DNA of 64,000 nucleotides, taken from Nephrocerus scutellatus. Its lineage: Eukaryota; Arthropoda; Insecta; Diptera; Pipunculidae. The stretch lies in assembly GCA_947095585.1 (NCBI GenBank), contig OX352761.1:52440019-52504018 (forward strand), written 5' to 3'. A program made the translations under genes and the position numbers. Of the stretch, positions 31,000 to 64,000 are shown one piece after another (within the stretch, counting starts at the first letter, position 1; each line of letters starts with the position of its first letter). The notes under the pieces were generated by a model. It did no database searches. It was not told where the DNA came from and saw nothing but the letters and a program-made list of their open reading frames with translations.

Positions 31000-31019
31000 T
31001 ATTATAGGTGATTAATGTT

Positions 31020-33443: not shown

Positions 33444-33579
33444 CCTCCCCCCTTAGAGTAGAGTGACGGTCACAATGACGTCAGTGGGGTTTGAACGAAG
33501 GATTGAAGCTGGGGCAAATCTTGCTTTCGGGATCTTCTTTTTGTGAGGACGATAGTTGTTGCAGCTGAGGATTAAATCT

Positions 33580-34751: not shown

Positions 34752-35242
34752 TTAGTTGTTAAGTTTATATATAGAAGGTGAAAGTTCATACACGAAGGTA
34801 AAGAGGAAAATACTAGAGGAGTATAGGTGGAAAATTAGTGGTTTGGTTTTTCTTCGAAGTTTACATTTATGGATATTTTTGTCTTTTCTTGTAATTATTG
34901 TGAAATTATTGTTTTTCTTAAATGTCTGTTTTGAGAACCTGGGTGTTATTTTATTTCGTCTAACCTCTTTTCTGAAAACGCTTTCGCCAACTTGTAGTTC
35001 CTGCGGTTCTTCTCTTTCTTCATTTAAATGCTCAATTCTACTTTTAGTGATAGTTTCGTCATTATCCTGTATTTTAGGGTATAAGTTGTCAAGAAACTCA
35101 TTGAGTTTAGACAAATACTCGTGTTCGTTTGAGAACGTAAGGGTTTTATAAAATTTATATGGTCTGCCGAAGAATAATTCGGATGGTTATGTTTGGTTAC
35201 CGAGTGAATTGCATTATTATAGGTGATTAATATGAATTGCAT
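34752..35242 (-). pseudogene. Z-element integrase remnant, array copy 2
   Basis: Protein-identical to the unit 1 remnant, including the one-base shift after SVTKH, so the break predates the amplification. Confidence 0.78.
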
Positions 35243-37266: not shown

Positions 37267-37662
37267 AGTTAAAAAACGAATTTATCAAAAAATATATTTA
37301 TTTTGACCATTCGGTCTGACTTTAACAATGCAAGTGAAAAGTTTACAATTCAAGATCAATAATCATACCTAACTTGCCAAAGTTAATTCCATGAACTTGA
37401 AAAGTGCCGGAAACATTCCAGACGCTGGCTCATCAAGTTTTTTGATTCGCTTGGGCAATTACAATGAAAATGCATAATTGACAAAAGTTGAAATACATAA
37501 TTGACGAAAATAGAAATGCATAATTGACAAAATTGGGAATACATGATTGCAGGTGTATCCGGTTATATGTGCTGGTGGTGGGAGTTGTTGACTTTTACGT
37601 AGGGTAAAGGTGAAGCTGCGCTGCTGTGGTGAGAGGGGCGTTAAGGTGAAGGCGACGTAACT
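37267..37662 (-). repeat. Z-element 3' LTR, array copy 3 (396 bp)
   Basis: Same LTR lacking one internal subrepeat of CATAATTGRCA type; ends and flanks are unchanged. Confidence 0.75.
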
Positions 37663-37798
37663 CCTCCCCCCTTAGAGTAGAGTGACGGTCACAATGACGT
37701 CAGTGGGGTTTGAACGAAGGATTGAAGCTGGGGCAAATCTTGCTTTCGGGATCTTCTTTTTGTGAGGACGATAGTTGTTGCAGCTGAGGATTAAATCT

Positions 37799-38289
37799 TT
37801 AGGTAGTGTAAGACCTTTGTTTTTGTGTCGAGGATTCGCAGTTTTGATTCAGCCAGGAAGTTGTAATCCTTAAGTATTTTTTTTTTAAGTTGAGTACGTC
37901 GTTAATGTGTGTTGCGTGAATCTGATTATTCGGCGAAGGTGATAGGTGGATGTCATCCCAGAAGATTGCGGGGTCGTCTTCGTAGGTTATTCCGTTAACT
38001 TCGATGTTGCATCTTTGAAAATGCATAAGGGCTTTTCCTTCGATTAGGCCAGTTTTGGTGCTGCAAGTGGAGTTAAAGACAACTTGTGGAAAATTAATAA
38101 AAAGGATAAAGTTGGGCTCGGGTTGGGTTCTTGTTTCGAGTTTCCCCACATTGTCAAAGGCGCCATGCATCCCATGCATCTGGATTCTTCTGTTTTTTCT
38201 TCCAGTTCTGGTGGCATACAGATGTGTGTTCCTGCTATTTTGGGGGCAAGGTGTGCTAAAGTATTGAATATTGTGATCATTATATGCAA
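37799..38289 (-). pseudogene. Z-element env remnant, array copy 3
   Basis: Same env-like remnant; it carries MHGMHGAF as in units 1 and 4. Confidence 0.5.
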
Positions 38290-38969
38290 TATAAGGTCAG
38301 TGGAAGTAATTTGTATTTCTTGGTCATTGAGTTTTTTATGTATAAGTTCTAGTATTAGTATTTTAGTATTAAGTAAAAACTTGGGTATTACATTTAATTT
38401 GTTTCAGTGCTTCAGTGATATCGGTAAGTGTGGTAAGTGGTAAGATAGAGGAAAAGGTTTGTTAGAAAAAAAAAAATGTCTTTTGAATGAGACAGAGTTT
38501 ATTAGTTAATGTAGAGGGAGGAATGTTTAATTCTGAAGGGTTAAATTTGAAATGTGTTTTTTAAGACTATATGATTAAAGTACTGAATAGCTAAAAATGG
38601 AATAATTACTTTTTTTTTTTTTTTTTTTTTGAATTGATAAAAATTTTTCGGTAAGGGTTTGCTACAATCACGCCATGCTCTGATTGCGCATTCTCTTTTT
38701 CGTTTATTTATTTAAATTCTGGAGTGCCCAGCAGTAGGGATCGCAGAAATATTTGTTTCTTATTAATTTATTTAAATTCTGGAGTGCCCAGCAGTAGTGA
38801 TCGCAGAAATATTTGTTTCTTATTTACTATCTTATATTTAACGTGTTGGTCTCATTAAAATAATTATTGAAATAAAAAATAATAAGAAAATTAAACGATT
38901 GGAAGTCATATATACTTAGTTGTATTATATAAATTTATACATATATATATGGTATATATAGTGTTAAAA

Positions 38970-39460
38970 TTAGTTGTTAAGTTTATATATAGAAGGTGAA
39001 AGTTCATACACGAAGGTAAAGAGGAAAATACTAGAGGAGTATAGGTGGAAAATTAGTGGTTTGGTTTTTCTTCGAAGTTTACATTTATGGATATTTTTGT
39101 CTTTTCTTGTAATTATTGTGAAATTATTGTTTTTCTTAAATGTCTGTTTTGAGAACCTGGGTGTTATTTTATTTCGTCTAACCTCTTTTCTGAAAACGCT
39201 TTCGCCAACTTGTAGTTCCTGCGGTTCTTCTCTTTCTTCATTTAAATGCTCAATTCTACTTTTAGTGATAGTTTCGTCATTATCCTGTATTTTAGGGTAT
39301 AAGTTGTCAAGAAACTCATTGAGTTTAGACAAATACTCGTGTTCGTTTGAGAACGTAAGGGTTTTATAAAATTTATATGGTCTGCCGAAGAATAATTCGG
39401 ATGGTTATGTTTGGTTACCGAGTGAATTGCATTATTATAGGTGATTAATATGAATTGCAT
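38970..39460 (-). pseudogene. Z-element integrase remnant, array copy 3
   Basis: Protein-identical to units 1 and 2, with the same frame break. Confidence 0.78.
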
Positions 39461-41484
39461 TATTATAGGTGATTAATGTTTCTGCCAGTATTTATTTCTG
39501 AGTGGTCTGTACCGACGCCGACGACGTTTCTACACAATTCACATGTGCACGTCGTATGCAATTTTTTTTTTGCAAATTTCCACTATCTTTCACAATCTTT
39601 ATATTCTGAAATACTAATATCGCCCCTGGAATCTGAAGCAAAAACGCCGGTTGGTTATCTCATCAGCGTTTGAACTCCAATCCCAATCCAACGATAACGT
39701 TAACAATTTATGACATCCTGTATTAAGATCGAGATAAGACTGTATCGCTAGTTTGTCATTTGCTAAAGCAAAAAAATTCCATTTGGCCTAGAGCATTTGC
39801 TGTAGCCAAAATTGGTACTTCACCGTTTGTCAGATGTAACCATTTTATGCCCAGAAGTTCGGCTGTCTCAATGCGATGCATTTCCAGAAAAAAATTTGTT
39901 ACTGGTTCAAATTTAAGAAGATATATTCGATCCTTTTAACGACAAGGTGGAGATGTCGACTCTGCACTGTTGCCCTCTATCTGATATGTTCCACACACAA
40001 AGTATGAAAGATAATCGGAAGAGGACAACATTCAATCGAATCAGAAGAATGCTCTGTGTAAAGGGTATTCTTCACTATCTCTCACCTTTAATAATTGCTT
40101 TAAACAATTAATATTTTAGCACACTTCACAAACAATAACAATAATAAATGAACTATTGACTGACTTACATCTGTCAGTCTTACAACAGAAAATATACTCG
40201 TCTTCAGCAACCGAGTACTTCTCGTTGTATTATCTGTTTGTCTTAACTATCCACGCGTAACCGCGCTCGTTTTGACAAACAGATGGAACTAGAGAAATAT
40301 AAATGATCGTAAATAATAATCTGGATATTTATTTAAATCTTTTGTGCAATACTGGTTGGTGTGCCAGATAATTATTATAAGGGTTGTATGTTTTTGTGTT
40401 TTTTTGTTCAATGTTCAATGATCTGTTCAAGTAAAAATAAAGGATTAGATCAAACAAGTTAGAACGGACAAATAACAAAGAAAGAAATAGACGGGGGAAA
40501 AGAAAAGAGAAAGAAAGGTGGACGATAGGTTCGAAATATTTCAGCGCCATAAAATTTGATAGGAAAAATCAGAATTAGATAGCGACCTTGGCCGGCCGAC
40601 AAAAAGGGACAAACATGTAGCAACAACAAGAAATATTAGAAAAATAGAAAGGAAAGGAGAAAGATGTTCGCGCCAAAAATCGTTCGAGAAAAAAACCCTT
40701 TAAGTCTTTTAAAAATCTCTATATTCAAAACTTGAATTGATTAGCAAGTTGAAATTTAACAGTTCTAAAAGAAAAGGTGCTAATTCAAGAAAACTCTGTT
40801 GTTCGTAGACCTATTCACTTTAACAAAGAAGAATTAACTCGCAAGCTGAAAAATTTAACATTCGTTGGTGTGGTGGTGAAATAAATAAAAAATGGATTCT
40901 TCGTTTTTAAAGAAGCGCCTCGGATTTTAAACACTTGCTAATCTCCTGATTGCCAATCTTCGAACCTCCTATCTCCTTCATCGACCGACTACCACAACCC
41001 GTTTTTCGCCATCGAATATTCTAGAAATATTTTCGGCGCTAAAATATCATTCTGTCCTTTGTCTTCACCTTTTTGTCACTATTTAATTGCGCGTAAGCTA
41101 TGTCAATTCCGTCCTTTTATTAAAACTAAAAATCACAATTACTAGTAAACTTTAAACATGAATAACAATCATATAACACCTACAATTATTAATACACATA
41201 CATCAAACACTCAAACCAATTTCCAGTAAAATAATTGTCTAAAATACCCCTATGCTTCCCCAGTACCCTCTGTCGCTGAGCAGCATAACAATTAATTTCC
41301 CACGAATGTAGTTTTTTATTTTGGGTGGTTGAGGAGGGAGCTACTCGCTAAATGCCTATGTCAAATCAAGTTGTAGGTCAGTCGGTATTTTTCTTCAAAA
41401 TGTTGTGTGCATTTTTGTTTTGTTTGTTTTTGATTTTCTTGTTTTTTTTTATTTTTAAATATGTTAAATAATAAATATCGCGCG

Positions 41485-41904
41485 AGTTAAAAAACGAATT
41501 TATCAAAAAATATATTTATTTTGACCATTCGGTCTGACTTTAACAATGCAAGTGAAAAGTTTACAATTCAAGATCAATAATCATACCTAACTTGCCAAAG
41601 TTAATTCCATGAACTTGAAAAGTGCCGGAAACATTCCAGACGCTGGCTCATCAAGTTTTTTGATTCGCTTGGGCAATTACAATGAAAATGCATAATTGGC
41701 AGAAAATAGAAATGCATAATTGACAAAAGTTGAAATACATAATTGACGAAAATAGAAATGCATAATTGACAAAATTGGGAATACATGATTGCAGGTGTAT
41801 CCGGTTATATGTGCTGGTGGTGGGAGTTGTTGACTTTTACGTAGGGTAAAGGTGAAGCTGCGCTGCTGTGGTGAGAGGGGCGTTAAGGTGAAGGCGACGT
41901 AACT
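41485..41904 (-). repeat. Z-element 3' LTR, array copy 4
   Basis: Same 420-bp LTR as in units 1 and 2. Confidence 0.75.
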
Positions 41905-42040
41905 CCTCCCCCCTTAGAGTAGAGTGACGGTCACAATGACGTCAGTGGGGTTTGAACGAAGGATTGAAGCTGGGGCAAATCTTGCTTTCGGGATCTTCTT
42001 TTTGTGAGGACGATAGTTGTTGCAGCTGAGGATTAAATCT

Positions 42041-42531
42041 TTAGGTAGTGTAAGACCTTTGTTTTTGTGTCGAGGATTCGCAGTTTTGATTCAGCCAGGA
42101 AGTTGTAATCCTTAAGTATTTTTTTTTTAAGTTGAGTACGTCGTTAATGTGTGTTGCGTGAATCTGATTATTCGGCGAAGGTGATAGGTGGATGTCATCC
42201 CAGAAGATTGCGGGGTCGTCTTCGTAGGTTATTCCGTTAACTTCGATGTTGCATCTTTGAAAATGCATAAGGGCTTTTCCTTCGATTAGGCCAGTTTTGG
42301 TGCTGCAAGTGGAGTTAAAGACAACTTGTGGAAAATTAATAAAAAGGATAAAGTTGGGCTCGGGTTGGGTTCTTGTTTCGAGTTTCCCCACATTGTCAAA
42401 GGCGCCATGCATCCCATGCATCTGGATTCTTCTGTTTTTTCTTCCAGTTCTGGTGGCATACAGATGTGTGTTCCTGCTATTTTGGGGGCAAGGTGTGCTA
42501 AAGTATTGAATATTGTGATCATTATATGCAA
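42041..42531 (-). pseudogene. Z-element env remnant, array copy 4
   Basis: Same env-like remnant as in unit 3. Confidence 0.5.
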
Positions 42532-43208
42532 TATAAGGTCAGTGGAAGTAATTTGTATTTCTTGGTCATTGAGTTTTTTATGTATAAGTTCTAGTATTAG
42601 TATTTTAGTATTAAGTAAAAACTTGGGTATTACATTTTATTTGTTTCAGTGCTTCAGTGATATCGGTAAGTGTGGTAAGTGGTAAGATAGAGGAAAAGGT
42701 TTGTTAGAAAAAATAAAAATGTCTTTTGAATGAGACAGAGTTTATAAGTTAATGTAGAGGGAGGAATGTTTAATTCTGAAGGGTTAAATTTGAAATGTGT
42801 TTTTTAAGACTATATGATTAAAGTACTGAATAGCTAAAAATGGAATAATTACTTTTTTTTTTTTTTTTTGAATTGATAAAAATTTTTCGGTAAGGGTTTG
42901 CTACAATCACGCCATGCTCTGATTGCGCATTCTCTTTTTCGTTTATTTATTTAAATTCTGGAGTGCCCAGCAGTAGGGATCGCAGAAATATTTGTTTCTT
43001 ATTAATTTATTTAAATTCTGGAGTGCCCAGCAGTAGTGATCGCAGAAATATTTGTTTCTTATTTACTATCTTATATTTAACGTGTTGGTCTTATTAAAAT
43101 AATTATTGAAATAAAAAATAATAAGAAAATTAAATGATTGGAAGTCATATATACTTAGTTGTATTATATAAATTTATACATATATATATGGTATATATAG
43201 TGTTAAAA

Positions 43209-43699
43209 TTAGTTGTTAAGTTTATATATAGAAGGTGAAAGTTCATACACGAAGGTAAAGAGGAAAATACTAGAGGAGTATAGGTGGAAAATTAGTGGTT
43301 TGGTTTTTCTTCGAAGTTTACATTTATGGATATTTTTGTCTTTTCTTGTAATTATTGTGAAATTATTGTTTTTCTTAAATGTCTGTTTTGAGAACCTGGG
43401 TGTTATTTTATTTCGTCTAACCTCTTTTCTGAAAACGCTTTCGCCAACTTGTAGTTCCTGCGGTTCTTCTCTTTCTTCATTTAAATGCTCAATTCTACTT
43501 TTAGTGATAGTTTCGTCATTATCCTGTATTTTAGGGTATAAGTTGTCAAGAAACTCATTGAGTTTAGACAAATACTCGTGTTCGTTTGAGAACGTAAGGG
43601 TTTTATAAAATTTATATGGTCTGCCGAAGAATAATTCGGATGGTTATGTTTGGTTACCGAGTGAATTGCATTATTATAGGTGATTAATATGAATTGCAT
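43209..43699 (-). pseudogene. Z-element integrase remnant, array copy 4
   Basis: Protein-identical to the other three copies, with the same frame break. Confidence 0.78.
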
Positions 43700-44722: not shown

Positions 44723-45808
44723 TTAACATTTAAACACAATTTCTGGCATATGGCTACCACGACTATTTTTCACAAATGTCATTCTGGAGGTCCAATTTTC
44801 CAGCACTTTTTCAAGCATTTGAGGGCGTATGTCAGCAATGACACGTTGAATATTGGTTTCCAAAGCGTCAATCGATTGAGGTTTATCCACATAAACCAAT
44901 GACTTCACGTATCCCCACAAAAAGTAATCGAGTGGCGTCAAATCGCACGAACGCGGAGGCCAATTCACCGGACCATTTCTCGAAATAATGTTGTCGTTGA
45001 AAGTTTCTTTCAATAAGTCGATTGTTTCACGTGCTGTATGGCAAGTGGCACCATCTTGTTGAAACCACATTTCATCCATATCCATATCTTCAAGATTTGA
45101 CAACAAAAACTCATTTAACATGGTTCTGTATCGATTTCCATTCACGGTAACGCGTCGTCCTTCCTCATTTTTAAAGAAATATGGACCGATGATCCCACCA
45201 GCCCATAGACCGCACCAAACAGTACATTTATCAGGATGCATTGGTAATTCTTGAACGGCGTGTGGATTATCTTTGCTCCAAATGCGACAATTTTGTTTGT
45301 TGACGTATCCATTTAACAAAAAATGCGCCTCATCACTGAAGAGAATTTTACGGTAAAAAAATGGATCTTCGTTCAATTGATTTAACGACCAATCACTGAA
45401 TTCACGGCGCAAACGATGGTCGTGTGGCTTTAATTCTTGCACCAATTGAATTTTGTATGGCACCAAACCCAAATCTTTACGTAAAATTTTCCATAAAGTC
45501 GATGGACAAAGTCCAATTTGCTGAGCACGACGACGAATCGATAAATTGTCGTTTTCTTCGACACTGGCCTCAACGACAGCAATATTTTCTTCTGTACGAA
45601 CTCTTCTCATTCTTGTCGGTGGCTTGGCATCCAAAAGAGTGAATGTAGACCGAAATTTGGTAATTACGTTCTTTATGGTGGTCTCTGACGGACGATTATG
45701 TGCACCATAAAATTCACGAAGTGCTCTATAAACATTTTTAATTGAACACTGATTTTGAAAATAAATTTCCACGATTTGAAAACGTTGTTCTGGAGTTAAC
45801 CTATTCAT
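44723..45808 (-). CDS. Tc1/mariner-type transposase, 361 aa, catalytic DD36D
   Basis: A cut-and-paste transposase that acts on its own inverted repeats and inserts at TA. The N-terminal helix-turn-helix (residues 1-50, LTPEQRFQIVEIYFQNQ; Pfam DUF4817-like) is followed by a second HTH at about 88-120 (IRRRAQQIGLCPSTLWKIL). The RNase-H-like core has D159 in ILFSDEAHF, D252 in FQQDGATCH and D289 in SCDLTPLDYFLW; 36 residues separate the last two. No stop or frameshift. The frame is open upstream to 46084, but that part lies outside the element, so the Met at 45806-45808 is chosen, in front of LTPEQRF. Length fits the family. The spacing differs from classic mariner (DD34D), so a separate family is likely. 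Confidence 0.93.
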   Translation of the reverse strand: MNRLTPEQRFQIVEIYFQNQCSIKNVYRALREFYGAHNRPSETTIKNVITKFRSTFTLLDAKPPTRMRRVRTEENIAVVEASVEENDNLSIRRRAQQIGLCPSTLWKILRKDLGLVPYKIQLVQELKPHDHRLRREFSDWSLNQLNEDPFFYRKILFSDEAHFLLNGYVNKQNCRIWSKDNPHAVQELPMHPDKCTVWCGLWAGGIIGPYFFKNEEGRRVTVNGNRYRTMLNEFLLSNLEDMDMDEMWFQQDGATCHTARETIDLLKETFNDNIISRNGPVNWPPRSCDLTPLDYFLWGYVKSLVYVDKPQSIDALETNIQRVIADIRPQMLEKVLENWTSRMTFVKNSRGSHMPEIVFKC

Positions 45809-45885
45809 AAACAATACTGAGTAGAAATGCCACTTTGAGCTGTCAAAACAACTGTCATAAAATAAAACGACATCTATCGGAAAAA

Positions 45886-45909
45886 CAAACCTCCTAAAAA
45901 AACACCCAT
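45886..45909 (-). repeat. Right terminal inverted repeat
   Basis: CCTCCTAAAAAAACACCCAT directly before the TA target duplication; complement of the left end with two mismatches. Confidence 0.9.
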
Positions 45910-46460
45910 TATAAGGGTTGTATGTTTTTGTGTTTTTTTGTTCAATGTTCAATGATCTGTTCAAGTAAAAATAAAGGATTAGATCAAACAAGTTAGAACG
46001 GACAAATAACAAAGAAAGAAATAGACGGGGGAAAAGAAAAGAGAAAGAAAGGTGGACGATAGGTTCGAAATATTTCAGCGCCATAAAATTTGATTGGAAA
46101 AATCAGAATTAGATAGCGACCTTGGCCGGCCGACAAAAAGGGACAAACATGTAGCAACAACAAGAAATATTAGAAAAATAGAAAGGAAAGGAGAAAGATG
46201 TTCGCGCCAAAAATCGTTCGAGAAAAAAACCCTTTAAGTCTTTTAAAAATCTCTATATTCAAAACTTGAATTGATTAGCAAGTTGAAATTTAACAGTTCT
46301 AAAAGAAAAGGTGCTAATTCAAGAAAACTCTGTTGTTCGTAGACCTATTCACTTTAACAAAGAAGAATTAACTCGCAAGCTGAAAAATTTAACATTCGTT
46401 GGTGTTTTTAAAAAAAAAGGTGTTTAACCAGAAAGTTCTGTAGATCGTCGAACTATCCAC

Positions 46461-51658: not shown

Positions 51659-52501
51659 GTGAATTTGTGGAAAACCTTTAAAGTTGCTCCGGATATCATC
51701 TCCGAGATAGATATTCCAGACACGACGACGAACACAGACCCGATGATGCGGACTCTCTCGCCAGCACAAACGGAGGCACTACAGGCGGTGAAGGCTAAGT
51801 ACCCGTCCTACGCAAAACTTGGCATCGGAGAGACAAGCCTGGAGGAGCATGTGATCGAGACCGCCGAAGTGGAGCCGATCAAACAGAGGCACTACCCAGT
51901 GTCTCCGGCGATCCAGGAGCTTCTCTTCGACGAGCTCGATCGTATGATTTCTTTGGGAGTAATCGAACAGAGTCAGAGTGCGTGGAGTTCTCCGGTTGTG
52001 CTGGTCAGAAAACCTGGCAAAAACAGGCTGTGCCTAGACTCGCGTAAAGTTAACGCGGTTGCAAAAAAAGACGCGTACCCGTTGCCCCATATTGAAGGGT
52101 TGTTGAGCCGCTTGAAAGACACTCGGTTTATTTCGGGGATCGACCTGAAGGACGCCTTCACAGTCCCTGGGCGGCCACTGTATCAATTTACAGTGATGCC
52201 ATTTGGACTGTGCAATGCTGCCCAGAGAATGTGTCGGCTTGTGGACAGGGTGATACCGTCAAGGCTCAAGGTCAATGTTTTTGTGTTCCTTGACGATCTC
52301 CTTGTCTGCTCTACGGACTTCGAAAACCATATGGGTTTGCTAGAGGACGTCGCTGAGTGTCTTCGTAATGCTGGCTTAACAATAAACGTAGAGAAAAGCA
52401 AATGCTGCCGGAAAGAAATAAAATACCTTGGGTATATGGGCGACGGGTGCTTTAGGACGGATCCAGCAAAGGTTACCAGTGGAGGAGTTTCCAGTTCCTA
52501 A
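51659..52501 (+). pseudogene. Element X reverse transcriptase, with palm deletion
   Basis: 280 codons. Fingers with SAWSSPVVLVRKPGKNRLCL and DAYPLPHIEGLL; palm with GIDLKDAF, then TVPGRPLYQF without the ~15 residues (WQIPL...KTAF) normally between them, an in-frame deletion. MPFGLCNAAQRMCRLVDRVI and the catalytic box FVFLDDLLV (about 52280-52306) follow, then KYLGYMGDGCFRTDP. After 52490 the frame shifts. RT would probably be inactive without the deleted strand. Confidence 0.88.
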
Positions 52502-52559
52502 TACTCCGAAAAAACTCAGACGGTACCTGGGAATGACGGGATGGTAGCGCAGGTTCATC

Positions 52560-53048
52560 CCAAACTTTTCATCGATGACTGCTCCAATGACAGATTGTCT
52601 GAAAAAAGGCAAAGACTTTAGAATGACTGACATGGCAATTAAAGCATTTGACGAGCTCAAACAGCACTTGATTACGGCACCGATTTTGACTAACCAAGAT
52701 TTTTCAAAACATTTCTACATTCAATGTGATGCATCCACAACAGGCGTCGGTAGTGTCCTTTTTCAGATCGACACAGAAGGAAGAGAGAGGCCAATAGCCT
52801 ATATCTCACAAAAGCTCAACTCTGCACAGAGGAATTATAGCGTCACTGAGTTAGAGTGCTATGCGGCAGTCCTCAGTGTCCAAAAATTCCGTGCTTACGT
52901 TGAATTGCTACCCTTCACTATAATAACGGACCATGCTAGCTTAAAGTGGCTGATGTCGCAAAAGGATGGAGTCTGAAGCTACAAGCATTCAATTTTTCCA
53001 TTGAACACAGAAAGGGCACTCAAAACGTTGTTCCCGACGCTCAATGAC
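52560..53048 (+). pseudogene. Element X RNase H
   Basis: The frame 52575-52976 has FYIQCDASTTGVGSVLFQ (catalytic Asp near 52731), AYISQKLNSAQRNYSVTELE (Glu) and TIITDHASLKWLMSQ (Asp). It ends at a TGA, but the next frame continues the domain end (IEHRKGTQNVVPDA) to 53042. One frameshift at about 52970. Confidence 0.85.
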
Positions 53049-53340
53049 AATTGACGTTAACAATTTTATTAAGGACTGTGATACATGCAAGGCCTGCGGT
53101 CTACTCACCGCAGGCCAATGCCTCAGAGCGTGTGAACCGTAGCGTACTGACTAAGATCCGTTCGTACCTTGGAAGTGACCAACGCGACTGGGACAAGCAT
53201 ATTAGCTTTGCGGCATTTTCATTGCGAAGTGTTGCGCACGAAGCTACGAATCTAGAGCTGTATTATGCTGTGTTCGGCTTCCAAATGGCACAGAATGGAT
53301 CTGCTTTCGACCTAATGCGACGGTTAAACGAAGTTAAAAA
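53049..53340 (+). pseudogene. Element X integrase fragment
   Basis: Starts with the end of the zinc domain (NFIKDCDTCKA in one frame), then jumps to the end of the catalytic core: VYSPQANASERVNRSVLTKI with the catalytic Glu near 53129, then DWDKHISFAAFSLRS and LYYAVFG. Both catalytic Asp positions are deleted. The frame runs on into the LINE fragment. Confidence 0.85.
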
Positions 53341-54300
53341 CTCAGACCACCAGCAGCACTAGAAAAACTACTAGGACTCATACCTCTTCACTTACACATA
53401 AAAAGTGAAGAGGGAGCAAGAGCCATTTCACTCAAGGTAACCAACCAACTCAAAATCAACAGACTAGGACATACAAGCATCATCACCAAAATCAATTTGG
53501 GAAGCGAATTTTTCCTCCAATCAGATTCAATGATAAAAACAACTAATTTCCAAAGGAACTTCTCAATTAAAGTACCGGACCGTAATCAAGTTGAAAATAT
53601 CATAAATAATCTTTCCAATCATGCATCTATCTGGTACACAGATGGATCCAAAACAAACTCAGGAACAGGGGCAGGGGTATTCGGACCCAGAATCAAATTA
53701 CGTATACCCCTAGGAAAATCCCCAACCATTTTCCAGGCAGAAACAACAGCATTAGAAGCCTGCACACTAGAATGTATAAAGAGAAAATATAGGAGAACCG
53801 AGATCTATATGATCTCCGATAGTCAGGCCGCTTTACTAGCGCTGAAAGGCCCGGTTTTCAATTCAAAAATAACGTGGAGCTGCTACTGCCACCTAAACGA
53901 ACTGGCAAAAACCAACAAGGTCAACCTGATGTGATCCCCAGGTCATTCAGGCATTTATGGGAACGCGACAGCAGACCTCTGCGCAAAAGAAGGCGCGGAA
54001 GAGACCTTTACTGGCCCCGAGCCAAGCATAGCCTTCAACAAAAGCCACCTAAAAAATAAAATAAAGAAGTGGGCCAGAACACATACTATTTATATGTGAT
54101 GCCCTCACCCGGAAAAGACTTCAATACCTCAAGGCTCACACAGTTCTATGGCAGAATGCCAGACCTATCGATATATTGGCATTCATAAGAGGACTAGGCC
54201 ACCACATAATGTGGTAGACATCTGGGACGCACAATAGACATTAAGGTCGCAGTGCACAAGGCTCTAAAGCCCACAAACAATAACATAACATAACATAAAT
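53341..54300 (+). pseudogene. 5'-truncated non-LTR retrotransposon (RNase H end, TAACA tail)
   Basis: From 53341 the plus frame reads PAALEKLLGLIPLHLHIK (region before RNase H), then SIWYTDGSKTNSGTGAGVFG (first catalytic Asp near 53640), FQAETTALEAC (Glu) and YMISDSQAALLALKG (Asp). A TGA at 53932-53934 replaces the expected Trp before SPGHSGIYGNATADLCAKEG, which continues in frame. The 3' end is a short (ACATA)n run at about 54278-54298. The 5' truncation and simple-repeat tail are standard for an inserted LINE copy. Confidence 0.87.
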
Positions 54301-54835
54301 CTCTGACAAGAGAGGCTTCGGTTCTCTTATCAGAGTAGTGGAGTATAAGGTTTTCTTTTATACTATCCCAGATCATAGGAGTCCCATACATGTTGAGAAC
54401 CTCGTTTGCCTGGCGCACGACTTTGTTCCTTATTGCTCTTAGCAGAATCTGTCCATATGGGGTGCTATCTGTTCCCCTGATATAGAGTAGGATCTCCTCG
54501 ACATTCCTGAGGAATTCGTACAATAGTCGTGGGTCACCATCGAACCTTGGGATGTCTTTGATAGCATCGGGAATTCTAAGTGAATTGAAAATATCCGTGT
54601 GATTAACGGGAATTTGGGCAGAGCCAGCGGTTGCGGGTGGGTTTTGTGAGCCCGAAGTGTTAGGGTATTCGGTATTCATAATGTCAGCGAACGATCCAGA
54701 GGAAGTGGAGTTGGAGGAATCGTCTTTTTCATATATCTCTCTAAGAGACGTTATACTTCTATGTATGTTTCTGTGTATGGTTCTAAGATTGTATGGAAAA
54801 CTTTTCTTTTGCCTATCTTTGGGTTGCTTAGTCAT
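54299..54835 (-). pseudogene. Errantivirus/gypsy-type gag, truncated
   Basis: On the minus strand from an ATG at 54833-54835: a Ser/Asn-rich N-terminus, then DIPRFDGDPRLLYEFLRNVE, AIRNKVVRQANEVLNMYGTP and LILHYSDKRTEASLVRDL, the capsid core of gypsy-type Gag. The similarity ends where the LINE tail begins (about 54299), and the open frame beyond that is only LINE antisense. Its pol is absent. Could belong to the same lineage as the Z remnants, which lack gag, but this cannot be tested here. Confidence 0.8.
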
Positions 54836-55619
54836 CTAGATTTTATTATTTTTTTGTTCAGTTTAATGTTTCATTTATTTTTGTACAATATAGAATATAT
54901 GTGAATGGAGGGTGAAATTATATTGCATATAAAAATCAACGACTTACATGCACCCAAAAAGCAGGAACATCATCTTATGGTTGTTTTAATTTGGTCCCCT
55001 CTGGTAATTTCTGGTGATGTTTGACGTCGAGCAATTAGAGTTGGTGGATCTTTCTTAGCTGGTAAGCTTTCTTTGTGATTCGAACCGAGAGATTTCGATT
55101 TCATGTGATGGTGGAAAAATACTGTAAATTTTGTACGCTTTTGCAAAATTACAATTTGTCCTTCTTATTTTTGCTTAGCTAAAATCATTTATGAATTGCG
55201 GTGCACCGAAAACAGAAAGAACGAATCTGAATATTCAACTCGTACGTCGTAGACGATTTGCGACAAATAGCTGTACTCTTAAATTATATTGAAATTTGTT
55301 TCACTTTTTGCATAATTTTTTTTTCGATTTTGGATTATTTTACGGAATTTATTCTCTTAGCAATTAATTTACCGAAAATCTACGTCAAAAAGAGTTAATT
55401 AAATTTACATTCACGCACTCTGTTGTTTTTCGCTCTAGTCGCACTGCTTATGACTGAGGTTGGCTTTTAACTTTTCTCTATTCACTTGGACTTGCACAAT
55501 TTTGATTTGCGAAATGCAATTTAGAAAACTAGTTCTCTTTTATAGTTCATTAAATTTTTTTTTTGTTAAGTGATTCGAGATTCGATGATAAAGGGTTAAA
55601 ACCCACGGTTTTTATGATT
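54836..55619. other. AT-rich, no recognised gene
   Basis: Probably includes leader and perhaps LTR of the minus-strand gag element, but no TG/CA or AGTT/AACT termini with a matching partner were found. Confidence 0.4.
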
Positions 55620-55695
55620 TTTGATGCATGCATGCAGAAGTAGTGGCAAATTCCAGTGTGCTGTGCTGTGCAAAATCAACAGGTAAGTGTAAATC
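55620..55695 (+). other. Donor-like module, second copy of 23381-23440
   Basis: TGCATGCATGCAGAAGTAGTGG ... AAAATCAACAG|GTAAGTGTAA resembles the start of the module at 23381. In that copy the next block follows at once; here the next block (63756-64000) lies ~8 kb away. Confidence 0.5.
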
Positions 55696-55699
55696 TATT

Positions 55700-56248
55700 T
55701 TAATAAAACTTGTTGTTAATCTCCTTGATCAACAAAAGGCGACCATCGGACCTTGCTTAGTTAGTTCTCAGCCGTAGGCTGATGCACGCCTAGCTTTGTG
55801 CGCTGATCTAGCTCAGGGGAGTTGCGCCTACAACCTCGAAGCTGAAATTATTACAAAAATTGTGCGTGCATTAGAGAGAGAGAGAAAAAAAACGGAACGA
55901 TCTGGTTGGAATAGGGTCGCAATCAGCTGCCTCGGACGGACCGGACCGTCTGTTTGCCTACCGGACGGACAGACGGATCTACCAACTACTGTGGAGAAAA
56001 CCATGGAAAAGAAAAAAAAATTTACCCTAGACCACTTAGAGATGGTTCACAGGAGCGCCCTTCGCCGACTGTCTGCTGTCTCACCCAGGCATGCCAGATA
56101 ATAATTAACAAAGAGTTGTCATTTTTAGTTTTAGTGGTTTAACCAACAACAATCTTTTTATTTTTGTATGTGCAATATTTCATTTTGTCCTTATTTTTTT
56201 CCTTTTTTTTTTCTTTTCCTTAACCTAGTTAACAAATACTTCAAAGAT

Positions 56249-56250
<2 letters not shown>
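55700..56250. other. No recognised gene
   Basis: A 101-codon open frame (55796-56101) has no domain. A short GA tract (55874-55886) and GC-rich GGACGGACCGGACCGTC (about 55933) are visible. Confidence 0.4.

Positions 56251-56251
<1 letters not shown>

Positions 56252-56305
<54 letters not shown>
56252..56305. repeat. (AT)27 microsatellite
   Basis: A pure AT dinucleotide run of 54 bases. Confidence 0.97.
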
Positions 56306-56308
<3 letters not shown>

Positions 56309-56399
56309 GGCATGTGCAAGAAAATAAAATTTAGAGATATTAAATGAAGTATAAATTATCTGAGTGGGAGTTATAAGTAAAGAATCAAAAATAATCAAT

Positions 56400-57840
56400 C
56401 AATCAATTTCCAAATTTAGGGAGAAAAAGAATAGGGCTAAAACTAATTATCAATTATAAGAAAAGAATTAAAAATGTAATCAATTTCTAAATCCTTTTCT
56501 TTTTTGAGAAAAAAAACTAAAACTAACTATTAATTATAAGAAGAGAATGAAAATTAGAACCAATTTTAAAATCTTTTTTTGGAAGAAAAAAAATAAGACT
56601 AAAACTAATTATTAATGATAAGAAGAGAATAAATAATTCGTAAAAACAACCCATAAAAATTAAAATTTTTCATCTAAATTCTCTTATCGCAGAAATTGAT
56701 ATGGAAGCCCCATGATCCTGGCCCATTTATTTTTTATTGTAGGAGAAAATCATCGAAACAGACATTTGACATCAGATGTTAAACTTGAAAATGCTCAGAT
56801 CATTTTATTCTGAGCACTTAGAGCACGCTCATACTCTGAGCAAATAAGAAACACGAACATTTATCTTGAGAACTCTTTGACTGCTCTGAACTAATTTATG
56901 AAAACGCGAAATGACAGAATATTGCGAAAACTTGTTGTTCTATCTGTAAGTTGATATCGACAACAAAAAACGACATCAATAAAAATAAAATTCAGTAAAT
57001 AAAAATGTAAGTTGAATTAAGCATAAAACATTTATGTCTCGTTTCATTTGCTGGGTTCATTTGTGCGTGAGCTAAGATTTCTCTCTCTCTACCACCAAAA
57101 CCATGCAGCGCAGCCGACTGCGCAGCACACACCGCACACAGTCCTTAAAGGGCGACGAATATCTGATGCAGTATAGATATTTAAAAAATGTATAAGGGCC
57201 TTGCGGCCGAACCCAGGACCCGATCACTACCAAATTTTCGAAAAAGTATTGTTTATTGGGTATACACATGTGTGTAAAATTTGAAGAAAATCGGGTAAAT
57301 TTTTTAATTTTTTGTATGGGAGCCCCCCGACCCCGCAGCCCGAGGAGCCTTAAAATTTAATAGAAAGTGTTGTCTCACTTTCTCACTCACTTACGTTACA
57401 CATGTGTGCTAAATTTCAATAAAATCGGGCCATGGGAAGTGGGTTAAAAATTGATCGCCGATTCCACGACAGACGACCGACGACCGACCGACCCACGGGC
57501 AAGTGAAGTTAATATAGAGAATTTAAAAATAGAATCAACTCTTAAATCTTTTCTTTTTTTTTCTTTTGAGAGAAAAAAAACTAAAACTAATTATTAATGA
57601 TAATTATTAATTATTATAAGAGAATTTAAAATAGAATCAATTTATGAATCTTTTTTTTTGGGAGAAATAAAAATAAGACTAAACTAATTATTAATGATAA
57701 GAAAAGAATAAAAATAGAATCAACTCTTAAATCTTTTCTTTTTTTTTTCTTTTGAGAGAAAAAAAAACTAAAACTAATTATTAATGATAATTATTAATTA
57801 TTATAAGAGAATTAAAAATACAATCAATTTTTCGAATCAT
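56400..57840. repeat. AT-rich subrepeat array (Y LTR-associated), split by family M
   Basis: Repeated units contain AACTAAAACTAATTATTAAT, GATAAGAA-AGAATAAAAAT and AATCAATTT-TAAATCTTTT, at about 56410, 56475, 56560, 57530, 57640 and 57717. A single related unit lies at 62826-62945 beside the 5' LTR of element Y. The family M copy 56644-57532 sits between two units. Confidence 0.75.
56644..57532 (-). mobile_element. Family M element, copy 4 (long form)
   Basis: Inverted counterpart of 12622-13512 along its whole length, from AACAACCCATAAAAATTAAA to GAAGTTAATATAGAGAATTT. Uninterrupted units beside it (57690-57715, GAATAAAAATAGAATCAACT) show the likely empty site. Confidence 0.75.
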
Positions 57841-58011
57841 TTTTTATTGCTTTGCCAAGGGAAAAAGATTTAAGAGGATTTAGTGTGAAGCAATTTGACG
57901 GTAATGGTAATTTTTCCTTTGGTATAAAGGAACATATCTCGTTTTTAGAAATAGATTATGATAAAATAAGTAAAATTAGAGGTATGGATATTAATATTAT
58001 AACAAGTGCAA
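57838..58011 (+). pseudogene. rplE: Bacterial ribosomal protein L5 (rplE) fragment, probable endosymbiont transfer
   Basis: One plus frame of ~57 codons reads [32 protein letters not shown] and [19 protein letters not shown], the C-terminal domain of bacterial L5 (about residues 105-160 of ~180), where R-G-S-FDG-GN-GIKE-EI-YDK-RGMDI is the family signature. L5 binds 5S rRNA in the bacterial ribosome. There is no stop or frameshift. The N-terminal half and the last ~20 residues are missing; both edges run straight into Y-type repeat sequence. Animal mitochondria do not encode L5, and the cytosolic counterpart L11 is quite different. The AT-rich codons suit a Wolbachia/Rickettsia-like donor. 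Family is sure; donor is inferred. Confidence 0.85.
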
Positions 58012-58018
58012 GCCGAAA

Positions 58019-58632
58019 AGTTGGTGCTCCTTTGACAATGCGTGAAATCACATGTAACAATTTTTGGCGTGTGCAAAAAAAATATGGCGGCGGATGCTCC
58101 GTTGGCACTTTTCGCAATCAAACACAAAATTAAATTGCGCAGGTGCTCCGCTGACACTGCGTGTAATCACATGTAACAATTTTCGGCGTGGGCAAAAAAA
58201 AATATGGCGGCGGATGCTCCGCTGGCACTGTTCGCAATCACACACAAAAATAAATTGCGCAGGTGCTCCGCTGGCACTACGTATAATAACATAAAATAGT
58301 TGGTGCTCCTTTGACAATACACACAACTGCTCGCTCGGGTTGAATAAAAGAATAGACCCTTAGTTTTAATAATTAAAAAAAAAAATCTGACGAACGCAAC
58401 GACAATTTTAAAACAAATTTACTCCCTGAGCGCACGTCTGAGCACGACCAAGACAAGTTAAACAAGAAAGAAGCAAAAAGGAACACGCATCTCTCAAGAC
58501 TTTTTCTTTTGCAAAGCAAAAGGACAGCACGAGTCTCTCGAGTCTCGGTCTATTGTGTTGTCACTATTCGTTTATACGTGGCCTGAGACTTTCTTAACGA
58601 ATCAACCACGTTGCGAATTGCGACCATTACAA
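58019..58632 (-). repeat. 3' LTR of element Y
   Basis: Matches the 5' LTR, including CTGACGAACG, CTGAGCACGACCAAGAC and GCAAAGCAAAAGGA and the end GCGACCATTACA. The low-coordinate half is a minisatellite of ~120-bp units (58022, 58142, 58262) with GGTGCTCCGCTGACACTGCG and ATGGCGGCGGATGCTCCG. The 5' LTR shows the same units in different number. The L5 fragment abuts it. Confidence 0.8.
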
Positions 58633-58708
58633 AACAGATTATTATGGTTGCTACGGCAAACAGAATAAGCTGGGAGATGGTCCAATTACCTTCGGATGTC
58701 TTTAGCAT
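58550..58708 (-). CDS. Small membrane-protein ORF across the Y pol/LTR border (52 aa)
   Basis: On the minus strand an ATG at 58706-58708, overlapping the last codons of integrase in another frame, opens 52 codons. They are SEGNWT (one N-glycosylation sequon), one strong membrane segment ISQLILFAVATIIICFVMVA at residues 11-30, then a basic tail ending TTQ. The second half lies inside the 3' LTR. It looks like the anchor and tail of a lost envelope protein or a small accessory protein. Expression is unproven. Confidence 0.45.
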   Translation of the reverse strand: MLKTSEGNWTISQLILFAVATIIICFVMVAIRNVVDSLRKSQATYKRIVTTQ

Positions 58709-59580
58709 GGCAGATCCCTATTTTCTTCCCACCTAAATTCTCTAACTCATAGTAACTATTCCCTATTTTCCTAGCTATCCGCGACTTAATAAACTTCGGG
58801 GCCAGTTTGGCATTGAAATTATTTCCCTTTTTACTTAAAGCGAAGTTCCTTCTGAAGATCTCTTGTCCCGGTAGATAATTAACTTTCGTTGCTCTGGTAT
58901 TATATACCTTGCAATTGGACTTATATGCTTTCCTCTGATGCTCTTGTACACTTAATGTACTCGGGCACGCCAAAAGTGTTAAAGACGTGTTCCTCCAGGA
59001 ACTTACATATAGCGTTCGAGGAGAACTTCCGCAGTGGTTTCAGTAACGGGAACTTTGTTAAGTGTTCCAAGACAATTAACATTCCGATGTTACCACTCTT
59101 GGATCGGGGATAAGGCCCCAAAAAATCCATGAAGTGCTTTTGAAAAGGTCGGTCAGAAGTCGCTTGGTTACCCATCGGGGGACGCAAAATTGTGTTAGGG
59201 GCTTTTGTCTCTTTGCAAACCTCGCATTTTAGGACGAAATATCGTACTTCTTTGGTCATACCTGGCCAAAAAAGATTCCTTTTAAGTTTTTCTAACTTTT
59301 TTGAGATCCCGCCATGAGCCGAGGTTGGCGGACAGTGTGAGCTAGTGATAGCCTTATTGGTGAGGGCATTAGGCAACCAGAGTTTCCAATCAGGTACACA
59401 GCTCTTATTCCGGAGTATATTCTCGCGCAAATTCGTATATTCGATAGAATCAAAATGTATGGAATCGAGATCTATCTCGGGTGCTAAATTTTCTATGATA
59501 GACTCGATACTGACTCTTGAAAGGGCGTCCGGAACCACGTTCAAGCTGCCCTTGCTGCGACCACCGAGCGAGCCTCCCAT
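58686..59580 (-). pseudogene. Element Y integrase, catalytic core deleted
   Basis: The N-terminal part (58921-59580) has the zinc domain HCPPTSAHGGISKKLEKL ... CEVCK and the first catalytic Asp in HFMDFLGPYPRSKSGN (about 59117). It ends at FLEEHVFNTFGVPEY, where the second Asp should follow. The next frame (58686-58973) jumps to the C-terminal domain: VNYLPGQEIFRRNFALSK, KLAPKFIKSRIARKIGNSYY and GICHAKDIRR. Second Asp and Glu are deleted. Confidence 0.87.
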
Positions 59581-60352
59581 TAAGATCCGATTGACGCATA
59601 AGCCATTGCAAACTGGCGTGATCTGTTACGACCTTAAATGAGTGTCCTTCGACACATGCACGAAATTTCTTTATACTTAGTATGGCGGCTAGACACCCTT
59701 GCTCTGTGACGGAATAGTTTCGCTGGGCGCTGTTTAATTTTTGCGACATATACGCCACTGGTACTTCTACTCCATCTGGATCTACTTGTAGAAGGACGCC
59801 TCCTACTCCTATTTGGCTGACATCGCACTGAATCACGAATGGACGATTAAAATCCGGATTGGATAGCACTGGAGCTGTTGTAAGTTTTTGCTTCAACCTC
59901 CCAAAGGCACTTTGAGCTTCGTCCGTCCATTGAAAGGATTTGGCCTTTTTTAGTAGGTCAGTTAAATGTGATGACAGTTCCGTGAAATTCCCGATCCATC
60001 CCGCCATTCCCAAAAAACGTCGTACTTGCCGAACGGTTTTAGGGGGTGGATAATTGGCAATCGCAGAAACCTTTTCCGGGTCTGTTCGTAAACACCCCTT
60101 GCCTACAATGTATCCGAGATACTTCACTTCGCGTAAACAGAACTTACTCTTGTCGATATTCAATGTCAAACCTGCCTTACGTATTTGCCCTGACACTTCT
60201 ATTAGCAGCTCAATGTGACTGTCAAAATCTTCCGATATGAGAAATAAATCATCCAGATAAACAAACAACCGATCTTTCAGTTTAGGCGGAATAACTCGGT
60301 CCATAAGGCGACACATAGTTTGCGGAGCGTTACAGATCCCGAATGGCATCAC
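59450..60352 (-). pseudogene. Element Y RT palm/thumb and RNase H
   Basis: MMPFGICNAPQTMCRLMD, catalytic FVYLDDLFL (about 60258-60285), KYLGYIVGKGCLRTDPEKV and RRFLGMAGWIGNF. RNase H follows with FVIQCDVSQIGVGGVLLQ (Asp near 59826), AYMSQKLNSAQRNYSVTEQG and KVVTDHASLQWLM. The domain end is then lost through a frameshift near 59570. It begins in a different frame from the fingers segment. Confidence 0.88.
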
Positions 60353-60671
60353 TGTGTACTGGTAGAGGGGACGATTTGGTACCGTAAAAGCGGTCTTGTC
60401 TCGCGAGTTTTTTTTCCAGAGGTATTTGCCAAAAGGCGTCCTTTAGATCTAAGGAGGAAATGAATTCAGCCTGCGATAGGCTAATTAAAATGCCATCGAT
60501 TTGTGGAAGCGGATAGGCATCTTTCACGGTAACACTTTTGACCTTTCTAGACTCAAGGCATAATCTTACTTTATTCGGTTTCCTGACCAGAACCACTGGA
60601 CTGCTCCAGGAACTTTGAGCTTCCTCGATTACACCTAGTTCGAGCATGCGATCGATTTCTGCATGTGTCAA
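60330..60671 (-). pseudogene. Element Y RT fingers segment
   Basis: SSWSSPVVLVRKPNKVRLCL, DAYPLPQIDGIL and SLDLKDAFWQIPLEKK with the first catalytic Asp near 60447. The frame is lost at a T8 run on the plus strand (60410-60417), the only visible cause of the break from the next segment. Confidence 0.87.
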
Positions 60672-60675
60672 TCTC

Positions 60676-61317
60676 TCAATTGCCGACGAAATTTGGAAAA
60701 AATCTTTGCTTAATGGGTCTAGCTTCTTTGTTGATCTCGATAACGTCGGTATTCGGTATGGTCTTCCCTAAGCCTTGTTTCGCAAATGAGGGAAATAACG
60801 CTATGGCACTTTGTAACCGGGATAATTGCTGACACGGTAGTGAGTGTGAATCGACTAAGTCAGATCTAGTGTCTATCGCTAATTCGCCTACGATGTCGGA
60901 AGCTAAATCGAACGTTACCCAAAAATCCACTCCCAAATAGAGATCCTGTGATAAACTTGGATCTAAGAAAATTTTGACCGGTTTCGTTTGGTTGCGGAAG
61001 GTTACCTCGGCCATAAAGCTACCCTGAATGCTTTGAATTGTTCCGTCGGAGGTCGTTAGAGAGGTACGACATGTGGCAAACGGCTTCCTCTCCTCCAGAA
61101 AGGTTTTGGCCGCCTTGCCACCCAGACACGAGATCGACGCACCACTATCCAACCGTCCAGACATGCGCCTACCAAGCAACCGTACTTTCGCATAAGGCCG
61201 TATGTCATCCTCGCGTTTATAGATCGTGGATATAGCCTCTTTTAGTACCTGGCGACTGCGGAGTACTCTCGACCAAAAGCTTCTAAGTCTGCTGGTTGAT
61301 CGTTTTGGGGATTTCAA
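60676..61317 (-). pseudogene. Element Y protease segment
   Basis: 213 codons. RPYAKVRLLGRRMSGRLD leads into LDSGASISCLGGKAAKTF (catalytic Asp near 61155), followed by EVTFRNQTKPVKIFLDP and LYLGVDFW, typical Ty3 protease and linker. It runs to the start of RT (QRFFPNFVGN) and breaks by frameshift just before 60671. RT residues follow within a few bases. Confidence 0.85.
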
Positions 61318-61639
61318 AACAGGTATCTTACAGGCAATATCAACGGAATTTATCTGATTCTCAAAAAATATTCTACTCTTTGCTTCCTGTTATTCCCTAA
61401 GATAGGGTTTAATACTATTGGGAAAGCCGTCTTTCGTCCAATTGAACGGCTCCTTTTGGACTGAAATTTTGGGTATAACTACTAGCGGCCTGTGGTTACT
61501 TAAGGAGTCAGTTTGGGGGGGATGGAAAAGATCTTTGAGTGGGTCCGTCAAATGGCAGCCGTCTAATTTGGTATCGGGCGGAAGTTGCTGCTCTTCCTGC
61601 TCACGCCCGACTGACTGTTTTCTGGGTTACATCTTACGC
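61318..61639 (-). other. Element Y gag-protease junction, no open frame
   Basis: Between the zinc region and the protease frame; probably degraded coding sequence. Confidence 0.5.
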
Positions 61640-62698
61640 AATGAGGCTTGTACACCCTTGGCAATCTGCACCCATAACTGAAAACCGTCCTCTCCGCCAC
61701 GCAGTCGAAATAGCGATGACCCTCTTTACGACAGTTCCATCAAACTTTTGTCGAATTAGGTTCCTCACGCGTTTTGCTCGTTTCGCTGATAACCATTTCC
61801 TCGTCCGATACTTCACTGATTTGTCTACGATAGGGTCGAGAATTGCTAACGAGACCGTTGTCTCCTAAATCACCACCTAATGCTTCTCTCCGCAAGCACA
61901 GATGCCGTAGTTGAGAAACAGAGTTAATGTCTAAGTAAAATAATTCCCGTTGCTGTCCTGCTCTGTCCTGTCCTGTTGCTTCCTATCCCTCATCATTTCC
62001 CTAATGTCGGTGTCAGTCAGGTGATTTTGGAAGTGTAGTTTCAACGCTTCACAAAGAGAATGCCACTCAATTCTATCTACGGTTCGCCTATATCTCCAAT
62101 ACCACTCCTTGGCTTTCCCGTTAAAGAGTAAATGGCTATGCTCACTTAGCGTTCGAAAATCACCTCCTAAGCTATCGTGTGTCAATGAGTTGGTCTGATA
62201 TATAAATTTCTCTGCTGTACCATTAAAAGTAACATTCCATCCCTGAATAATGCTAGAAACCCGGCTCGTATTGCCCAAAGCATATGCCAAAAGTCGAGGT
62301 AACTTTGTTTGCCTGCAGTCCGGCATTCTGCGCCACGATTGTGGCTAGAACCTTGTCCGAAGATAGCTCCAAACTCTGTGGAAAGAACCCACCGACGATG
62401 TGTGGTTTGGGGAATGATCCTTCTTTCACCAGCATACCGCCGCTATCGGTCATCTCAATTGAGGTGTCAATAACTGCCTCCTGGAAAAGAGCCAGCCTGA
62501 CAGCACTAGCCACTTGACTGAAAGTGGGTATTTCAGGTGTAGTTTCCGTTTTTTTTTGGGTGGTGTTTGATCCTCAGATCTAATCCGCTTATTATCGCAT
62601 TGTTTAGGGGGACCGGTTTTGGAATATTCGAGAGCACTCTCTCCACTCTTGCCAGTGCGTAAAGCATGTCTAATCCGCCTTTTCTTAAGCGAGCTCAT
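61640..62698 (-). pseudogene. Element Y gag with zinc knuckle
   Basis: N-terminal part in one frame (62450-62698, basic: KKRRIRHALRTGKSG), a middle part in another (62253-62513), and the capsid core in a third (61931-62326: GWNVTFNGTAEKFIY, LLFNGKAKEWYWRYRRTV, LKLHFQNHLTDTDIREMM). A zinc knuckle, CRKEGHRYFDC, followed by a second Cys pair, lies near 61640-61735. At least three frame changes. Confidence 0.82.
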
Positions 62699-62825
62699 AT
62701 TGATGAATCCACCCTTTTGTTTCTGTATCTGTAGTTCATCTAATGCCTTCCAAATAGAAGAGCAACCGGATTTCTCCGAGATGACGCTACAGACTTCAAC
62801 AAGTGTGGATGTGTCAGAATCAAAA

Positions 62826-63753
62826 TGTAATCAATTTTTAAATCTTTTTTTTTTCTTTTGAGAGAAAAAAAAACTAAAACTAATTATAAATGATAATTAT
62901 TAATTATTATAAGAGAATTAAAAATAGAATCAATTTTTGAATATTTTTTTTTATATCAATTATAAGGAAAAATTCAATACTAAATTAGGTAATAATTGTA
63001 AGGGCTCCGTTGACACTGTGTGAAATCACATGTAATAATCTTCGGCGTGTGCAAAAAAAAAATGGCGGCGATGCTCCGTTGGCACTGTTCGCAATCAAAC
63101 ACAAAAATAAATTGCGCTGGTGCTCCGCTGACGCTCCGTGTAATCACGTAAAATAGTTGGTGCTCCTTTGACAATGCGTGAAATCACACTGTTCGCAATC
63201 AAACACAAAAATAAATTGCGCAGGAGCTCTGCTGACACTGCGTATAATCACGTAAAATAGTTGGTGCTCCTTTGACAATGCGTGAAATCACATGTAACAA
63301 TTTTTTGCGTGTGCAAAAAAATTATGGCGGCGGATGCTCCGCTGGCACTGTTCGCAATCACACACAAAAATAAATTGTGCAGGTGCTCCGCTGGCACTAC
63401 GAATAATCACATAAAATAGTTGGTGCTCCTTTGACAATACACACAACTGCTCGCTCGGGTTGAATAAAATAAAAGACCCTTAGTTTTAATAATTCCAAAA
63501 AAAAAATCTGACGAACGAAACGACAATTTTAAATCAAATTTACTCCCCGAGCGCACGTCTGAGCACGACCAAGACTAGTTAAGCAAGAAGGAAGCAAAAA
63601 GGAACACGCATCTCTCAAGACTTTTTCTTTTGCAAAGCAAAAGGAGAGCACGAGTCTCTCGAGTCTCAATCTATTGTGTTGTCACTATTCGTTTATACGT
63701 GGCCTGAGACTTTCTTAACGAAACAACCACCTTGCGAATTGCGACCATTACAC
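62826..63753 (-). repeat. 5' LTR of element Y with AT-rich lead-in
   Basis: Plus-strand termini TGTAAT (62826) and ATTACA (63753) are complementary. The part from about 62999 matches 58019-58632, with the same ~120-bp minisatellite units but different number and order. The part 62826-62945 matches the AT-rich units at 57530-57840. The L5 fragment is absent here. Confidence 0.65.
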
Positions 63754-63755
63754 TA

Positions 63756-64000
63756 TGATATAGAGGCGCGATTTCTGCCGTTTCCAAAAAAAAAGAAAAT
63801 TTATTTGAGAAATAGATATCGCGTCTCAGTTTTAATGTTTGTCGTAGTAGAATGCTATTTCTATTTTTTTTGTTTTACTTTCTCGGCACATACATTCGAC
63901 GTCGACGTCAGCTGAGGATTATCTCATTGTACAGGTAAGTGAAGTTTATTTTTATGAAGTTGAGGCTTCTGCTTTTGTTTTCTTTTTCAGATGCCATCGG
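63756..64000 (+). other. Exon-intron-exon-like module, second copy (continues past window)
   Basis: Matches 23447-23680: ATAGAGGCGCGATTTCTGCC, AAATAGATATCGC and TCAGCTGAGGATTAT. TTGTACAG|GTAAGTG and TTTTCTTTTTCAG|ATGCCATCG bound a 56-nt intron-like gap (63935-63990), a normal minimal size for flies. The matching copy at 23.6 kb has lost ~19 nt of it. Confidence 0.5.

Follow-up and report, generated by a model that had tools for sequence, protein, structure and literature searches.

Two copies of a short Wolbachia rplE (L5) fragment among host repeats, very probably a nuclear transfer without function

We analysed a 64-kb stretch of DNA (hereafter the window), which lies at G000:C1:52440019-52504018 in an assembly of 613,391,848 bases in 9 contigs, C1 being 142,240,654 bases long. 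On the plus strand, a stop-to-stop frame of 105 codons (57816-58133) contains the C-terminal domain of ribosomal protein L5 (PF00673 in a Pfam search, E 2.5e-20; score 72.8 bits, cut-off 27.8). The NCBIfam L5 model NF000585 also matches this frame (E 4.3e-24), with 85.3 bits, below the model's cut-off of 186, which applies to the full-length protein, and so do chains of bacterial L5 from solved structures (best E 1.9e-19). Within the frame, 165 of 166 bases are those of a Wolbachia genome (G031, locus L101). The bacterial L5 C-terminal signature that the initial annotation had read in an uninterrupted frame is thus borne out by both the domain match and the DNA match. Rfam and tRNA scans of the window gave 0 and 0 matches. 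The features at the locus are as follows.

57524..57848, plus strand: AT-rich host repeat units of the left flank, in tandem units of ~90 bp, of which the last extends up to 4 bp into L5; 57705-57848 and 62816-62952 share 89.6% identity
57845..58010, plus strand: Wolbachia rplE (L5) fragment of 55 codons, residues 104-158 of 177, carrying the PF00673 match, with homology ending on both sides
58011..58015, plus strand: 5 bp between the end of the Wolbachia match (58010) and the start of the host-repeat match (58016) at the right junction, possible filler
58016..58631, minus strand: LTR-type repeat of the right flank, opening with satellite-like units of ~120 bp (tandem units at 58023-58292); 88.7% identical to 63152-63752
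58921..60442, minus strand: Ty3/gypsy-like pol frames, antisense to the L5 piece, with an integrase zinc-binding domain and with reverse transcriptase and RNase H
62816..63752, plus strand: paralogue of both flanks without L5, made up of AT-rich repeat, a different sequence of ~50 bp, satellite-like units and LTR-type repeat
51765..64000, plus strand: colinear duplicated stretch of ~12 kb, with gaps, recurring at G000:C1:52508807-52520952, where it carries a second L5 copy

The homology to Wolbachia DNA is gapless across the 166 bp, and the fragment is without residues 1-103 and 159-177 in the numbering of the Wolbachia protein P0016. Similarity stops at 57845 and at 58010 in every one of the 31 Wolbachia rows shown, in an alignment that takes in 30 more bases before and 60 after. 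The limits first proposed, 57838-58011 with ~57 codons, were roughly right and a few bases too wide. The window holds one copy of the fragment. The fragment is not a complete, working bacterial gene on a replicon, since the L5 is only partial and host sequence stands immediately on both sides.

The right flank is retroelement sequence. Frame 58921-59625 matches PF17921, and frame 59450-60442 matches PF17917, PF17919 and PF00078 in Pfam; the named arthropod matches of the gypsy frame are insects, which makes an insect host likely. The repeat at 58016-58631 would be an LTR by its position, a paralogous repeat lying at the opposite side of the gypsy frames, and frames and LTR-type repeats together read as a worn Ty3/gypsy-type element. 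The initial annotation had described retroelement repeats on both sides and had named them Y-element. This description holds for the right side, with its antisense Ty3/gypsy domains and LTR-type repeat; the left side is an AT-rich repeat, another copy of which lies beside the gypsy element, and we found no support for the name. The paralogue of both flanks lacks L5 and has a different sequence of ~50 bp at 62952-63004; as an ancestral empty site it is uncertain, since it differs in this interval and in the number of satellite units. Elsewhere in the window, a 459-codon antisense frame at 44723-46102 presumably resembles a mariner-type transposase, and four near-identical units of ~4.2 kb occupy 29341-43643, with the same 165- and 144-codon frames at 29341, 33580, 37799 and 42041.

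We then investigated the donor. Among the 80 bacterial loci listed, the top DNA match is a 6.2-kb locus (L008) of a metagenome-assembled genome (MAG), which matches 57845-58010 with 95.2% identity. We take this MAG to be termite-associated from its isolate name. The 80 loci seemed to miss lineages, so the whole genus of this genome was then searched (41 genomes). The fragment is matched by 40 of the 41 Wolbachia genomes, with 81-99% identity, and the best match is G031, with a single mismatch in 166 bases (99.4% identity, E 2.2e-81); a chance match is therefore excluded. In a tree of 33 rows built on the 166 bp, in which 4 of 22 inner branches are well supported, the L5 piece falls nearest to G031 but outside any well-supported group. 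The protein ranking covers 120 of the 2311 proteins with E at most 1e-5. Identity is 73-95% for the top 32, and the 20 of them with an organism name are from Wolbachia in 19 cases and from a 'Rickettsiales bacterium' in the other. After these 32 come named Anaplasma and (Neo)ehrlichia proteins, with 70-73% identity. A scan of viral contigs for the L5 piece gave 12 pattern matches, 0 of them confirmed. The comparisons with Wolbachia genomes and proteins identify Wolbachia as the donor of the fragment. The initial annotation had proposed lateral transfer from an alphaproteobacterial endosymbiont, to be checked by whether the best protein match was a bacterial L5. Wolbachia L5 proteins are indeed on top, and the donor, rightly placed, is now narrowed to Wolbachia by the protein ranking and the 40 genomes. 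A separate observation concerns protein P0103, of 100 residues, from a 12,250-bp JGI contig. In it, unrelated residues are fused to a worn L5 C-terminus of Wolbachia type, and it could be another nuclear Wolbachia transfer (nuwt) in another host.

A PF00673 search of the assembly found three places, namely the window's L5, C1:52514784 and C2:40322782. The last of these reads as what we take to be an RPL11-like (eukaryotic uL5) exon. The second is another copy of the fragment, at C1:52514785-52514927, 16.9 kb downstream of the first; these two, in one duplicated segment, are the L5 copies found among the matches listed. The duplicated stretch covers at least 51765-64000, its right end being the window end. 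The right junction is identical in place in both copies, and the 5 bp at 58011-58015 are present in the second copy too, with one change at 58013. The left junction of the second copy is gone, and its L5 starts at the base equivalent to 57868. The L5 piece appears to reside in a host nuclear chromosome: its contig measures 142 Mb, host repeats lie to either side of it, and its right junction recurs in the duplicated copy. Further partial copies of gypsy-like elements, 90-99% identical and without an L5 match, lie nearby at C1:52504536-52507724 and 52521469-52524594, and may represent a nest of repeated insertions or duplications.

The duplicates differ at 70 of 6125 aligned bases (1.1%) to the right of the breakpoint and at 43 of 1737 (2.5%) to the left. 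Because of this disparity, a single simple date for the duplication would not fit. Relative to G031, there is one private change per copy, Phe to Leu at 57872 in the window copy and Ser to Thr at 57939 in the other. Since each copy departs from G031 by one private change, the 143 bp that they share probably equalled today's G031 at the time of duplication. A Drosophila-like mutation rate is ~2.8e-9 per site and generation, at which the 1.1-2.5% between the copies would correspond to about 2-4 million generations, as an order of magnitude only.

The L5 part of the two copies differs at 2 of 143 bases, against 70 of 6125 (1.14%) in the right-hand flank (P of two or more = 0.49), a comparison in which 143 bp have little power. 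Each of the two private changes within L5 is an amino-acid change, and a pair of changes does not suffice to test formally for purifying selection. In the window copy, the first in-frame ATG lies inside L5, at 57984, leaving about nine L5 codons, with none before about residue 150; likewise, the first in-frame ATG of the second copy is within L5, about nine codons before the L5 end. No frame was found that unites a start codon with host coding sequence: the L5 frame contains no host gene and continues into the satellite-like repeat, and the piece itself lacks a start codon, a stop codon and the N-terminal domain. The fragment is thus most likely non-functional and inert, as judged from its sequence. 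The initial annotation had taken the intact frame to be either recent or too short to show decay. The latter is the better half of that statement, in view of the divergence between the duplicates and of the amino-acid replacement that each private change in L5 causes.

We then investigated other Wolbachia-like sequences in the host assembly. Within the window, a comparison with 12 blocks of 20 kb from G031 (240 kb of its 1.68 Mb) gave L5 as the sole match and no second nuwt. Across the assembly, the L008 locus has eight host matches with 77-95% identity, and two 20-kb blocks of G031 have 16 and 41, of which 12 + 10 = 22 are at least 80% identical, 46-664 bp long and located on C1-C5. The count of 22 leaves out 4 of the 16 and 31 of the 41 matches, which are under 80% identity, and it includes both L5 copies; one block, L134, was picked because it holds L5, so the sample is not a random one for density. 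The longest host match from the two blocks, 664 bp with 96% identity to L134, is at G000:C1:76054713-76055376. At G000:C2:83443337-83444660, adjoining Wolbachia-like matches keep the same order across an interruption of ~950 bp and may represent a single older nuwt that an insertion has divided. Of the 31 matches under 80% from the second block, 27 are ~102 bp long, 75-76% identical and on contig C6, and they are probably an array of a conserved RNA gene. For matches with at least 90% identity to Wolbachia over at least 100 bp, an origin other than Wolbachia would be hard to explain, while the density and the Wolbachia specificity of the scattered matches are provisional. Scaling the 22 matches to the 1.68-Mb Wolbachia genome gives roughly 900, if 2 of 84 possible blocks are typical. 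The host chromosomes may thus be peppered with hundreds of Wolbachia scraps (~50-660 bp, from 99% to below 80% identity) that were captured over a long time and form a layered record of past infections, with the L5 piece among the youngest; we consider this picture evenly balanced between true and false.

Our explanation of the locus, which we hold with high confidence, is that the L5 piece is a nuwt, captured at a repaired break, then duplicated and now drifting without function. A short piece of Wolbachia DNA would have been taken up during the end joining that closed a break in a repeat-rich part of the host chromosome. We infer end joining from the junction anatomy alone, because the ends are abrupt, the left one overlaps the repeat by up to 4 bp and the right one has 5 unmatched bp. 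A segment of ~12 kb that holds the L5 piece and the gypsy element came to lie twice, 16.9 kb apart, as the two copies attest. By comparison of the copies, a deletion removed the left junction and 23 bp of L5 from the second one, presumably in this order of events. The L5 piece would now be drifting without function, having no start or stop codon of its own, no N-terminal domain and a rate of change close to that of its flank.

Alternatively, capture might have been mediated by RNA, the reverse transcriptase of the neighbouring LTR element having switched template to a Wolbachia transcript, so that L5 entered within a cDNA. The L5 piece abuts an LTR-type repeat, and retrotransposition is raised for nuwts in a discussion passage on Brugia malayi (PMC3849323). 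However, L5 is antisense to the gypsy frames, where sense orientation would be expected of a template switch, and many other Wolbachia pieces are scattered elsewhere. Capture by the retroelement's own machinery is weakened by these observations, and we regard it as improbable.

We give only a very slim chance to a chimeric contig or Wolbachia contamination, in which an assembler joined the L5 piece to insect sequence, as might be suspected of a piece nearly identical to a living Wolbachia genome. The second copy lies in a ~12-kb duplicate that has diverged; its right junction is that of the first copy, its left breakpoint differs, and it carries a private change. Further Wolbachia pieces lie on C1-C5 with identities down to 80% and below. 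The fear that the junction was a one-off chimera is laid to rest by its recurrence 16.9 kb away in the duplicated segment, and contamination is rejected on the strength of this diverged duplicate.

It is just as unlikely that the fragment has been domesticated, its frame having turned into a host exon or a small chimeric gene. Arthropod chimeras from horizontal gene transfer (HGT) are on record (PMC13389597), and the open frames reach 105 codons in the window copy and 159 codons in the second. These frames, however, run on into satellite-like repeat, neither copy has an in-frame ATG before the last nine or so L5 codons, and both private changes replace an amino acid at a rate that matches the flank; a working host gene is rejected for its lack of an earlier ATG and this flank-like rate. 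Mistaking host uL5 (RPL11) or a mitochondrial sequence for bacterial L5, which is conceivable in that PF00673 covers eukaryotic uL5 as well, is refuted by the 99.4% DNA identity to Wolbachia, the eukaryote-like exon at C2:40322782 being a clearly different sequence, and has practically no probability left.

Our preferred reading, a nuwt captured at a repaired break, has parallels in described systems. The nuwts of Brugia malayi (PMC3849323) are gene fragments, mostly of 100-200 bp, with a continuous range of divergence and many in multiple copies. The L5 piece is likewise a short gene fragment with more than one copy, whereas its host is apparently an insect, the assembly being 613 Mb; both copies are readable in sequence here, something that the Brugia paper says was not reliably possible for its multi-copy nuwts. 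Chromosome 4 of Drosophila ananassae is described (PMC4299567) as carrying large Wolbachia insertions that are duplicated and contain host retrotransposons. Both cases have duplicated Wolbachia DNA in an insect chromosome with retrotransposons, but that account has much of the Wolbachia genome moved, against 166 bp here and a longest match of 664 bp in two 20-kb samples. The arthropod HGT chimeras (PMC13389597) also combine bacterial and host sequence in a single open frame, while the L5 frame has no start codon, no sign of selection in the 143 bp compared and no host gene.

The L5 insertion is genuine but ordinary, as short nuclear Wolbachia transfers are common and already published. The Darwin Tree of Life survey of Wolbachia describes it as common for endosymbiont fragments to reach the nuclear genome, and screened such fragments out (PMC9894559). 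Nuwts like this one can pass for infection or contamination, or be screened from assemblies. The single case adds another instance of short Wolbachia pieces that enter host chromosomes and are later multiplied by ordinary chromosome rearrangement. If it is true that hundreds of such scraps with a spread of ages exist, they could be used to date past Wolbachia infections of the host.
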